This document shows, piece after piece, positions 48,942-52,971 of a stretch of DNA of 64,000 nucleotides (position 1 is the stretch's first letter; the number at the start of each line of letters is the position of its first letter). This DNA comes from Bifidobacterium sp. Its GTDB lineage: Bacteria; Actinomycetota; Actinomycetes; Actinomycetales; Bifidobacteriaceae. The position numbers were made by a program, and so were the translations under genes. The notes under the pieces are model-generated. The model did not search any database and was not told the origin of the DNA. It worked only from the letters and a program-made list of their open reading frames with translations. Location of the stretch: contig JALCCT010000006.1 in NCBI GenBank assembly GCA_022640915.1, forward strand, positions 55,589-119,588, read 5' to 3'.

Positions 48942-49634
48942 ATGGTGGAGTACGTAGTTCATACAGATGTAGAAATAGAAGAATCGGGAGTCGCTGAGCA
49001 GATATTAGGCGATACCGCTTTTACTGTCTGCCAATTGTTTCACGTGAAACTTTCCAAGGAAGGAGTGTTACGCGGGATCATTGGGCCTCGTGATAGTGAG
49101 ATCCTTTGGGAACGGCATATCCTGAATTCTGCGGCTATTGTGCCGTTCATTCGGCAGGCTGCTGCTGGTCGAAAGCGGAAGACTGTGGCCGATGTAGGAA
49201 GCGGTGGTGGGTTCCCAGGGCTTGTCGCAGCGGCTTGTCTTCCCGATTATGAATTCACGCTTATTGAGCCTATGGAGAGACGGTGTTCATGGTTGCAAGA
49301 GTGTATTGGTCTCATGCAGCTACACAATGTTCGGATACTGCGTAATCGTGCTGAAGAAGCTATTGCCCGTATGCACACCGACCATTCATTTCATTCGTTT
49401 ACCGTTGTTACATGCCGAGCGGTTGCACCTATGAAAAGACTCAGCGCATGGACGCTGCCACTTGTCGCTTCCCAAGGGCAACTAATTGCGTTAAAAGGAC
49501 GGTCGGCCCAGGCAGAGATCGAGAAAAGCTCTGCAGCAATAGCGAAGTCAGGCGGATTCAGGCCTCGGGTCGTAGAGGCGACAGTCGGACCTGATATGGA
49601 CCCTACTCACGTAGTGATCATCGATAAACACTAG
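48942..49634 (+). CDS. rsmG: 16S rRNA (guanine527-N7)-methyltransferase RsmG (GidB)
   Basis: [68 protein letters not shown]. Confidence 0.96.
49036..49051. promoter_or_regulatory. parS: parS site inside rsmG
   Basis: TGTTTCACGTGAAACT (15/16). Confidence 0.9.
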
Positions 49635-50151
49635 TTGGAATACATGAGGTTACTTGCGTTGCCTATAAGGAAGGGCAGAGCGAACATATGTTTTGAGTAC
49701 GTTCCGCATGGGTTGCTGTGTTGGAGTTTTGGTTACCAGCATTGATGGGTTGTGGTCTGAGTTGAAACCGTGCTGTGCCGCGCGATGATGTCTGCTGGTT
49801 AGTTCTTTCAAGGCACGAACGTGATGGCGAGTGTACAAACTGGGTTCACGCCTCGGGTGCCGCAAAGATGCATTAAGGCATCCGAGCGTCAAGCAGTTGA
49901 AAATGTTAGCAGGTCCGAGGCGTGTAGCAATCTATTTAGGCAATGCAACCTATCGAACAGGCTCAGCACTTGAGCATGCTCTTTATGCTATCGTCGTTGA
50001 GACATAACGATTTGATTTATTCGTGACATTTTCTGACTCAAGTGATCGAAGCCTTCATTCCAGGTTATGAATCTGACCTCATTCAATTACAAATGGATAT
50101 GGTCAGACTGTTGCAAGTCGCAGATACGAGGATTATTTTAATGGTGCATTC

Positions 50152-50201
50152 GAATTTCGCATGGGAGATGTTTCACGTGAAACATCTCCCATGCGAAATT
50201 C
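50152..50201. repeat. parS: Perfect 50-bp palindrome centred on parS
   Basis: GAATTTCGCATGGGAGATGTTTCAC|GTGAAACATCTCCCATGCGAAATTC; contains perfect parS TGTTTCACGTGAAACA at 50169-50184. Confidence 0.97.
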
Positions 50202-50212
50202 TAATTACCAAG

Positions 50213-50361
50213 TTATCCACAGCATTTTGCTGCACTCAGACTTATACACAGAAAATGTGCATAAGTCTGAGTGCAGCAAAACCATTCTCGTATTTATGCT
50301 TGTGGTAATCGAAAGAGAAGTTATCCACATAGTTGTTCATAGTTATCCACACTTATACACA
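50213..50361. other. DnaA-box cluster upstream of parA
   Basis: TTATCCACA at 50213-50221, 50321-50329, 50343-50351; degenerate TTATACACA at 50242-50250 and 50353-50361; TGTGCATAA at 50256-50264. Confidence 0.85.
50225..50281. repeat. 57-nt inverted repeat (21-bp perfect arms)
   Basis: TTTTGCTGCACTCAGACTTAT-acacagaaaatgtgc-ATAAGTCTGAGTGCAGCAAAA. Confidence 0.97.
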
Positions 50362-50489
50362 GTATTGAACAAAATGCCGAAGATCTGATCTGTCCACCCG
50401 AGTGACGAAACTGGAACAACTGTCATTCGCGACTTGAAGCCGTCGACGGCTGCTACTCGTTAGGAAACAGAAGGGAAAGGGCATTCGTT

Positions 50490-51434
50490 ATGGAATCTGC
50501 TGCGGAAACCATTCAACGTATTTTTGGCGATGCCCAGAGTTCAGTTGGCGCCGAAATGGCAGAGACAACTACGCTGTATAAGCGTCTCCATGAGACCGTT
50601 TTTCCCAAGCCATCTTCGACGAGATATATAGCAGTCGCAAATCAAAAGGGCGGGGTTGGCAAAACATCGACGACGGTGAATATCGCTGCGGCACTTGCAC
50701 AGGCAGGTGCCCATGTCTTGCTGATTGATATGGATCCGCAGGGGAATGCTTCTACAGCACTTGGTGCACGGCATAATTCAGGCGATGCATCGGTGTACGA
50801 CGTTCTCGAAGAACGAATGGGAATAGAGAAGGTCAAGCAGCAATGCGCTGAGTTCCCTTCGCTTGACGTTGTCCCCTCCTCGATTGATCTCAGCGGCGCC
50901 GAACTCGAAGTAGCTAATTTAAATGGAAGAACGTATCTGCTCAAACAAGCTTTGGAGTCGTTCATAGCGCAATCTAGCGATCACTATGACTATATCTTCA
51001 TCGACTGTCCCCCAAGCCTCGGGTTGTTGGTCATCAACGCTATGTGCGCTGTTACTGAGATGCTTATTCCTATTCAGGCTGAGTATTATGCCCTCGAAGG
51101 TCTTGGTCAACTCATTCACACCATCGGACTTGTGCAAGAGCATTATAATTCTTCGTTGCTGGTTTCGACGATGCTGGTCACAATGTTTGATAAGCGTACA
51201 TTGCTTAGCCGAGAAGTATATGAGGAAGTGAAAAAGCATTATCCCAGTATTGTGCTGAATACGACTATTCCTAGGACTGTCAAGATTTCGGAAGCACCCA
51301 GCTTCGGACAAAGCGTGATCAGTTATGATCCCCGAGGAATGGGAGCGGTGGCATACGTGGAGGCTGCTTTAGAGATTGCACAACGGTCGCCTGTAGTCTT
51401 AGCCGCGATTGAATCAAAACAACGAGAGGACTGA
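50490..51434 (+). CDS. parA: Chromosome partitioning ATPase ParA
   Basis: IAVANQKGGVGKTSTTVNIAAALAQAGAHVLLIDMDPQGNASTALG; YIFIDCPPSLGLLVINAM. Confidence 0.98.
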   Translation: MESAAETIQRIFGDAQSSVGAEMAETTTLYKRLHETVFPKPSSTRYIAVANQKGGVGKTSTTVNIAAALAQAGAHVLLIDMDPQGNASTALGARHNSGDASVYDVLEERMGIEKVKQQCAEFPSLDVVPSSIDLSGAELEVANLNGRTYLLKQALESFIAQSSDHYDYIFIDCPPSLGLLVINAMCAVTEMLIPIQAEYYALEGLGQLIHTIGLVQEHYNSSLLVSTMLVTMFDKRTLLSREVYEEVKKHYPSIVLNTTIPRTVKISEAPSFGQSVISYDPRGMGAVAYVEAALEIAQRSPVVLAAIESKQRED

Positions 51435-51435
51435 C

Positions 51436-52971
51436 ATGGCTACGAAATCACGGTTAGGCAAGGGCCTTGGAGCATTATTCCCAGACCTTCCCGGGGAGCC
51501 GTTGTCGCTGAGCGCGAATGAAGATGAACAGAGCGTTGCACAAGCCGTTGTTGATGACTCTGCTGCTGATCATGCAGTGGCGAATTCAAATTCGTATGAG
51601 AGTGCGGAGCAGCCTGAGGTCTCAACAGATCCTGCGGCGGCAGATCGAACGCATCAAGCAGATCCGAAGGGGAAATTATCCACCAGGCACAAGCACCCAG
51701 CAAAGCACGATGTTTCACGTGAAACATCCAAAAGCACGGGAAAGAAACGTGTGAGCGTTCCCACGCTGAGTGAAATAGTGCATCCAAGCGACGTGTTCTT
51801 CGGTGCGACAGGCGATATAACAACTGCTCGAAGGCGTAATGAAAGCGTTCAGGACGATGCTATGGACGCGAGACAGGTTTCTCCGAACAGCAGAGAGACC
51901 GCGAATGTCGGTGCAGAGTTCATCTCTCACGATGATGAAATTGCTTCGTCTGAAACTGAACTTGCTCCGGTGCAGGGTGGATACCTTGCTGAGATCAAAG
52001 TTTCTGATGTTGGCCCTAATCTTCATCAACCCCGAACTGTGTTTGATGAAGACGAATTAAAAGAACTCGCCGACTCGATACAAGAGGTTGGTGTACTGCA
52101 GCCAATTGTTGTGCGAAAACGTCCACAGAACCAGCAACCTGAAAACAACACAAAGAGTTCCGGCCCTGGGGCTTCGCTAGCGCGTACAAACAGAATCGAA
52201 CACGTAAAAGCAGGGATTGCAACTCATGATGAGACGCACAATGTACCGAGCTCGGCTTCTGACGTTTCGGCATCTCCGGCTATGGACAGCGTCTATGAGC
52301 TAATTATGGGGGAGCGTCGCTGGAGGGCTTCTCAGCTCGCCGGTCTTGAAACGATCCCGGCTATAGTCAAAACTACTGCTGATGACGATATGCTCCGGGA
52401 TGCCCTCTTGGAGAATCTTCATCGCGTGAATCTGAATCCCTTGGAAGAAGCCGCAGCATTTCAGCAAATGATCAAGGAATTCGGCTTGACTCAAGCTGAG
52501 CTGTCTCGTGCGATTTCAAAGTCCCGTCCACAGATCGCCAATACCTTACGGCTGTTGAATCTTCCTGGCTCAGTACAGAAGAAAGTCGCGGCCGGAGTAC
52601 TTTCCGCTGGTCACGCCCGTGCACTGCTGTCGCTTCCTACCCAGGCAGAAATGGACAAGCTTGCAACAAGGATCATAGCTGAAGGGCTTTCCGTCCGCAG
52701 TACCGAGGAAATCGTAGCGATATCGTCTGCGTCAGCTGATCAGCCAGCGAAGGCGAAGGCACCGAAGAAGAATCCGTGGCTGGATTCGCCGATTCAGCGT
52801 AATCTGGAGAATCATCTTGATACTAAAGTGTCTATCAAGGGAAACCACAAACACGGCAGAATTGAAATCGTTTTCTCATCCCCTGAGGACATGGATCGCA
52901 TCGTTGATCTACTGATGCCAAATACTGGTGCAGCAGCTAATTCCGTGACAGCACATACTGAGTGGGTCTAA
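51436..52971 (+). CDS. parB: Chromosome partitioning protein ParB (CTPase/DNA-binding), with internal insertion
   Basis: MATKSRLGKGLGALFPD; LHQPRTVFDEDELKELADSIQEVGVLQPIVVR; ELIMGERRWRASQLAGLETIPAIV; ENLHRVNLNPLEEAAAFQQMIKEFGLTQAELSRAISKSRPQIANTLRLL. Confidence 0.97.
   Translation: MATKSRLGKGLGALFPDLPGEPLSLSANEDEQSVAQAVVDDSAADHAVANSNSYESAEQPEVSTDPAAADRTHQADPKGKLSTRHKHPAKHDVSRETSKSTGKKRVSVPTLSEIVHPSDVFFGATGDITTARRRNESVQDDAMDARQVSPNSRETANVGAEFISHDDEIASSETELAPVQGGYLAEIKVSDVGPNLHQPRTVFDEDELKELADSIQEVGVLQPIVVRKRPQNQQPENNTKSSGPGASLARTNRIEHVKAGIATHDETHNVPSSASDVSASPAMDSVYELIMGERRWRASQLAGLETIPAIVKTTADDDMLRDALLENLHRVNLNPLEEAAAFQQMIKEFGLTQAELSRAISKSRPQIANTLRLLNLPGSVQKKVAAGVLSAGHARALLSLPTQAEMDKLATRIIAEGLSVRSTEEIVAISSASADQPAKAKAPKKNPWLDSPIQRNLENHLDTKVSIKGNHKHGRIEIVFSSPEDMDRIVDLLMPNTGAAANSVTAHTEWV
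51711..51726. promoter_or_regulatory. parS: parS site inside parB
   Basis: TGTTTCACGTGAAACA, exact consensus. Confidence 0.93.

Follow-up and report, generated by a model that had tools for sequence, protein, structure and literature searches.

In the Bifidobacterium DNA analysed here, a stretch of 64,000 nucleotides that we refer to as the window, the intergenic region between rsmG and the parAB genes contains an array of boxes for DnaA, the initiator protein of DNA replication (Table 1). Read 5' to 3', the region presents a parS palindrome, box A, box B together with an inverted box, an accessory box, boxes C and D, a 25-bp element and finally parA, with box D ending 128 bp 5' of the parA start at 50490. 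The core boxes A–D are arranged as two tandem pairs, with internal spacings of 29 bp and 10 bp and about 100 bp between the pairs. Elsewhere in the window, dnaA matches its Pfam family, and there is a thioredoxin-reductase-like gene 3' of parB.

Table 1. Features of the parA locus and other DnaA-box clusters (window positions unless a locus is named; conservation is the majority-base frequency of the alignment columns).
Feature	Position	Strand	Remarks
Main oriC DnaA-box cluster, dnaN-dnaA	42945-43187		Reference point; 7.0 kb from the parA array
Second DnaA-box cluster, upstream of dnaA	45120-45184
rsmG (gidB)	48942-49634	+	Upstream neighbour; Pfam GidB
parS, TGTTTCACGTGAAACA	50169-50184		Inside 58-bp near-perfect palindrome 50148-50205; position lineage-specific
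Core DnaA box A, TTATCCACA, exact	50213-50221	+	First of 29-bp pair; conservation 0.94 over 68 species
57-bp imperfect palindrome	50225-50281		26-nt arms, 5-nt loop, hairpin-forming; contains boxes 50242 and 50256
Core DnaA box B, TTATACACA, one mismatch	50242-50250	+	Second of 29-bp pair; conservation 0.97
Inverted DnaA-like box, TTATGCACA, one mismatch	50256-50264	-	Partner of box B in 57-bp inverted repeat; clade-specific; conservation 0.36
Accessory perfect DnaA box, TTATCCACA	50321-50329	+	Position only partly conserved, 0.51
Core DnaA box C, TTATCCACA, exact	50343-50351	+	First of 10-bp tandem pair; conservation 0.93
Core DnaA box D, TTATACACA, one mismatch	50353-50361	+	Second of 10-bp tandem pair; conservation 0.95
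Conserved 25-bp element, TGTCCA...GAAACTGGA, full TGTCCACCCGAGTGACGAAACTGGA	50391-50415	+	Between boxes and parA; conservation 0.78
parA (P0001)	50490-51434	+	Pfam AAA_31/CbiA/ParA
parB	51409-52971	+	Pfam HTH_ParB, ParB_N; listed ORF, true start probably ATG at 51436
Rhomboid/DUF881 DnaA-box cluster	L229 2252-2406 (G000:C14:33751-33905)		Between both genes; also read at L299-L328

The three perfect and three one-mismatch boxes that a previous, sequence-only reading had placed at 50213-50361 are confirmed. Six boxes with at most one mismatch fall within 149 bp, compared with a maximum of two in any 149 bp of 2000 simulated sequences (first-order Markov, modelled on the composition of the 855-bp intergenic region). 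Across the 64-kb window, 11 perfect boxes occur where 0.37 would be expected; these form three groups, at dnaN-dnaA, upstream of dnaA and upstream of parA. The parA array is thus a cluster of consensus boxes outside oriC and above chance, as in clusters of the DBC type. Its reported distance of about 5 kb from oriC holds for the boxes upstream of dnaA, but not for the main dnaN-dnaA cluster. Likewise, the one-mismatch boxes are present as described, but two of them (50242 and 50256) sit in a hairpin repeat, and conservation of the one at 50256 stops at the closest clade.

Loci around parA came from the same GTDB genus (112 genomes); besides the window, 80 of them were read together with their flanks. 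Matches to parA occur in all 112 genomes, G044 having only weaker ParA paralogues, its parA region being masked. Natural loss of parAB in G044, where no close parA and no rsmG were found, was considered and rejected; the genome is uninformative on this point because that contig end is masked with N. Of the 80 usable loci, 68 carry at least three boxes no more than 400 bp from parA, which makes 68 of the 79 with the region intact, as one of the 12 box-negative loci is cut by a contig end. The array therefore passes the comparison across species that the sequence-only reading had offered as a means of refuting it. Boxes inside the first 400 bp of the parA gene were found in none of the 80 loci, and controls with shuffled 9-mers (n = 200) gave a mean of 0.35 genomes, with a single outlier, at 54 genomes, that is probably a shifted copy of the motif.

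Conservation is concentrated in the core boxes and their spacing. Over the 68 species, the majority-base frequency is 0.93–0.97 in the columns of boxes A–D, compared with approximately 0.49 overall, and column conservation is unremarkable in the inverted box, the hairpin arms, the accessory box and the parS palindrome. The spacing between A and B is 29 ± 1 bp in 56 of these species and that between C and D is 10 bp in 48, while the gap between the two modules varies from 92 to 116 bp and is mostly 100–107 bp. The array thus combines conserved boxes with conserved spacing in non-coding DNA, as do datA and the DARS loci.

On a five-protein tree, the distribution of the array requires just two changes, namely losses in the Gardnerella-type clade (ten species) and in B. 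minimum. The Gardnerella-type loci (L178, L179, L183, L184, L161, L171, L182, L190, L198 and L180) belong to small genomes that lack the parA cluster. Beyond the genus, two sister genera of the family have the array as well: g8, and g15, to which bee-associated species and Bombiscardovia belong. In the remaining genera sampled in the family it is absent or down to one or two boxes, and it is absent from 58 of 58 testable parA loci in Candidatus Ancillula, other actinobacteria and other phyla. Judged from this distribution, the array has been conserved as a module through evolution and goes back to the ancestor of Bifidobacterium sensu lato.

Where the gap to the upstream gene is long, the boxes stay with parA. 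In bee-associated bifidobacteria the gap between rsmG and parA has grown to about 2.4 kb, yet the array lies 140–340 bp from parA. Three species (L134, L135 and L138) carry trxB between rsmG and parA and have box clusters on both sides of it: a complete array close to rsmG, plus additional boxes preceding parA. This indicates that these species keep boxes before parA and can bear, or benefit from, a second copy elsewhere. In the window, trxB is found downstream of parB.

Between the boxes and parA, the 25-bp element has a fixed internal spacing across the genus, is a single occurrence in its own genome, and is present in box-less species too. Its retention there is as expected for a core promoter plus a separable upstream control region, and we infer that it is a core-promoter or operator element. 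A sigma-70 scan in front of parA found no good promoter. A conserved upstream leader peptide at this position was rejected, since the reading frames stop early and encode different peptides.

The parA array is one of several DnaA-box clusters in the genus. Upstream of dnaB, at least three boxes were found in 21 of 30 species (L269-L298; in the case of L231, at 2362-2443, corresponding to G000:C1:215861-215942). The rhomboid/DUF881 locus carries a dense conserved cluster, often with 5–20 boxes in a few hundred bp. Up to ten boxes precede a gene for a THUMP-like-domain protein in three species (L232 2252-2518, L237 2090-2361 and L240 1747-1943), and another cluster of similar layout occurs in the vicinity of a GlnD-like gene (L233 and L238). 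The Gardnerella-type genomes sampled have no dnaB-upstream boxes (one stray box, six species) and have three to six boxes at the rhomboid locus. B. minimum has kept its dnaB boxes and lost those at parA, and several species with parA boxes have none at dnaB, so the two sets are not strictly coupled.

We propose that the array binds DnaA and serves to regulate the parAB operon, a reading to which we assign a probability of about one half. Among the three roles considered in the sequence-only reading (control of parAB by DnaA, a titration locus and an auxiliary origin element), this one appears best supported. It fits best because the spacing of the boxes is fixed, because their place before parA is fixed even where insertions separate the array from rsmG, and because the array ends by a 25-bp element that is separable from it. 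DnaA would bind the two tandem pairs, distal (29 bp) and proximal (10 bp), just upstream of the parA promoter, and the pairs, some 100 bp apart, might be bridged via DnaA-DnaA contacts. Expression of parAB would then follow how much DnaA there is or how active it is, as well as the doubling of this origin-proximal locus, and the occupied array would also keep DnaA away from oriC. DnaA occupancy, the position of the promoter, the sign of regulation and any looping are putative parts of this scheme. Box clusters upstream of dnaB and of dnaA itself are consistent with a regulatory role, and there is a precedent in Vibrio cholerae, where RctB and ParB2 at rctA inversely regulate parAB2 (PMC3141006; PMC6399470). 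Against it are the negative outcome of the sigma-70 scan before parA, the box clusters away from replication genes, as at rhomboid/DUF881, the complete array that adjoins rsmG instead of parA in the trxB species, and the Gardnerella clade and B. minimum, which manage without the parA array.

The wider network of boxes at dnaB and rhomboid/DUF881 makes titration the main rival. Here the array would bind free DnaA after origin duplication, acting as an inactivation site of the B. subtilis DBC or Streptomyces type with a datA-like outcome, and its position before parA would be incidental; promoter-proximal boxes can act by titration alone. The existence of conserved clusters at the rhomboid/DUF881, dnaB, THUMP-like and GlnD-like loci is in keeping with such a role, as is the location of the array 5–7 kb from oriC, which means that it doubles early. 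Deletion of six B. subtilis DBCs leads to early initiation (PMC5295017), and clusters near oriC repress untimely initiation in both S. coelicolor and B. subtilis (PMC4585315). However, titration needs neither fixed 29- and 10-bp pairs nor a set distance to parA, yet both are observed. The array is also small, with four to six boxes, in comparison with the rhomboid and oriC clusters, and the Gardnerella clade has dispensed with it while retaining its rhomboid-locus boxes. The datA/DARS-like role suggested for the locus is therefore possible, given the other conserved clusters, although the larger rhomboid/DUF881 cluster seems the better candidate for a datA, DARS or titration site. As the sole function of the parA array we regard titration as a tentative and rather doubtful explanation; it could, however, run at the same time as regulation of parAB.

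The parA array is not the origin. Cumulative GC skew in the window profile, which we used as per-gene GC3 skew is confounded by coding strand, is lowest near 42 kb, at dnaN-dnaA, with no change of sign through 50 kb. The Gardnerella clade keeps the dnaN-dnaA boxes wherever these are readable, and the boxes upstream of dnaA in all but one case. With the skew switch at dnaN-dnaA and a whole clade that lost the array but kept its oriC boxes, the proposed auxiliary origin element is disfavoured; retention in all members of the lineage, expected of an oriC, is not what we find. A related reading would make the array the third part of a composite oriC, in which DnaA gathers the parA, dnaA-rpmH and dnaN-dnaA boxes into one orisome. 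Bipartite origins are known (PMC4285127), and the B. longum oriC has been described as "three oriC clusters" (PMC2430713). We nevertheless hold this to be improbable: the skew minimum is not at 50 kb; AT content does not set the array apart (at most 70% AT in 50 bp, a level close to that of the other two regions); the testable array-less species keep the other two box regions, except one without boxes upstream of dnaA; and the spacer would be 5–7 kb, compared with up to approximately 2 kb in known split origins (PMC4285127). A link to the centromere fares worse still. In Caulobacter, DnaA makes direct contact with parS and stimulates its movement (PMC9945499; PMC6399470), and similar coupling here would aid ParA-dependent release or movement of the origin independently of transcription. 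In the window parS does lie 28 bp upstream of box A, so the merging of initiator and segregation sites noted in the sequence-only reading is real there, but most species do not share it: of the 68, only 11 have a canonical parS 100 bp or less from a box and 20 have one at any point of the intergenic region, and the parS columns of the window are poorly conserved (0.16). DnaA sites at parS are thus not a property of the lineage, and we consider this explanation very unlikely. The genome sequence available for the window's organism has three exact parS sites, all at this locus (in rsmG, in the rsmG-parA gap and in parB).

The closest working analogue of the array, going by its boxes, is rctA of V. 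cholerae chromosome II. In the window, as at rctA, putative initiator sites, parS and parAB occur together near an origin, and the bifidobacterial boxes, like the sites at rctA, lie between parAB and the upstream gene and are fixed to parA. At rctA, the initiator and ParB set both parAB transcription and initiator availability (PMC3141006). However, the initiator there is RctB and the replicon a plasmid-like secondary chromosome, whereas in Bifidobacterium the boxes are those of DnaA, the chromosome is the primary one, and parS is near in only some species. Building on the proposed regulatory region, one can imagine a counterpart of rctA that works with DnaA on a primary chromosome, where DnaA at the pairs and ParB spreading from a nearby parS would oppose each other in setting how strongly parAB is transcribed and how much DnaA is available. 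Initiation and segregation would then be linked in both directions, and this link would have been lost with genome reduction in Gardnerella. This extension is unlikely as it stands.

Other systems share fewer features. Caulobacter crescentus also has DnaA sites near its partition locus and origin, but these are at the centromere and not tied to the parAB promoter, while parS is an inconstant partner in Bifidobacterium. The B. subtilis DBCs and the S. coelicolor cluster resemble the array as consensus boxes outside oriC, origin-proximal and several per genome; the literature searched describes none that combines a fixed place before parA with two spaced tandem pairs. E. coli datA, DARS1 and DARS2 are likewise non-coding clusters with conserved box spacing that tune DnaA, but they are defined biochemically, by IHF/Fis-dependent switching of the DnaA nucleotide (stimulation of DnaA-ATP hydrolysis or of ADP release), and the bifidobacterial array is compared with them by sequence. 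In Deinococcus radiodurans, cisII and cisMP bind DnaA and precede parAB on secondary replicons (PMC7671480), but they are iteron-based replicon origins with centromere function and non-canonical boxes. Nor did the literature search turn up any account of a bifidobacterial parAB promoter with DnaA boxes. The parA boxes may nonetheless have been seen already, since the three clusters of the 2008 B. longum genome paper, which lists seven box types (PMC2430713), may include this array. Outside Streptomyces, the control of chromosomal parAB expression, and any tie to the replication cycle, are described as poorly known (PMC9945499). The conserved array suggests a coupling between initiation of replication and production of the segregation machinery. 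With short, defined box modules before parAB across the genus, and losses in Gardnerella and B. minimum as natural controls, the link between parAB and replication becomes a question for promoter reporters and deletions in gut bacteria that are culturable and harmless.

The 57-bp inverted repeat around boxes 50242 and 50256 was rejected as a key feature. At full length it was not found in any relative, and it is species-specific, given that close relatives conserve just a shorter inverted box pair. In two of these (L120 and L121) the members of the pair match each other (both TTGTCCACA or both TTATCCACA), which, to judge from the letters, is concerted change. The repeat was also rejected as a terminator, since it lacks a T-run and was not called as one. 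Sites for parS are embedded in longer palindromes at L132, L133, L018 and L142 as well, some of them directly after rsmG and terminator-like, as if a single element were both parS and transcription terminator.
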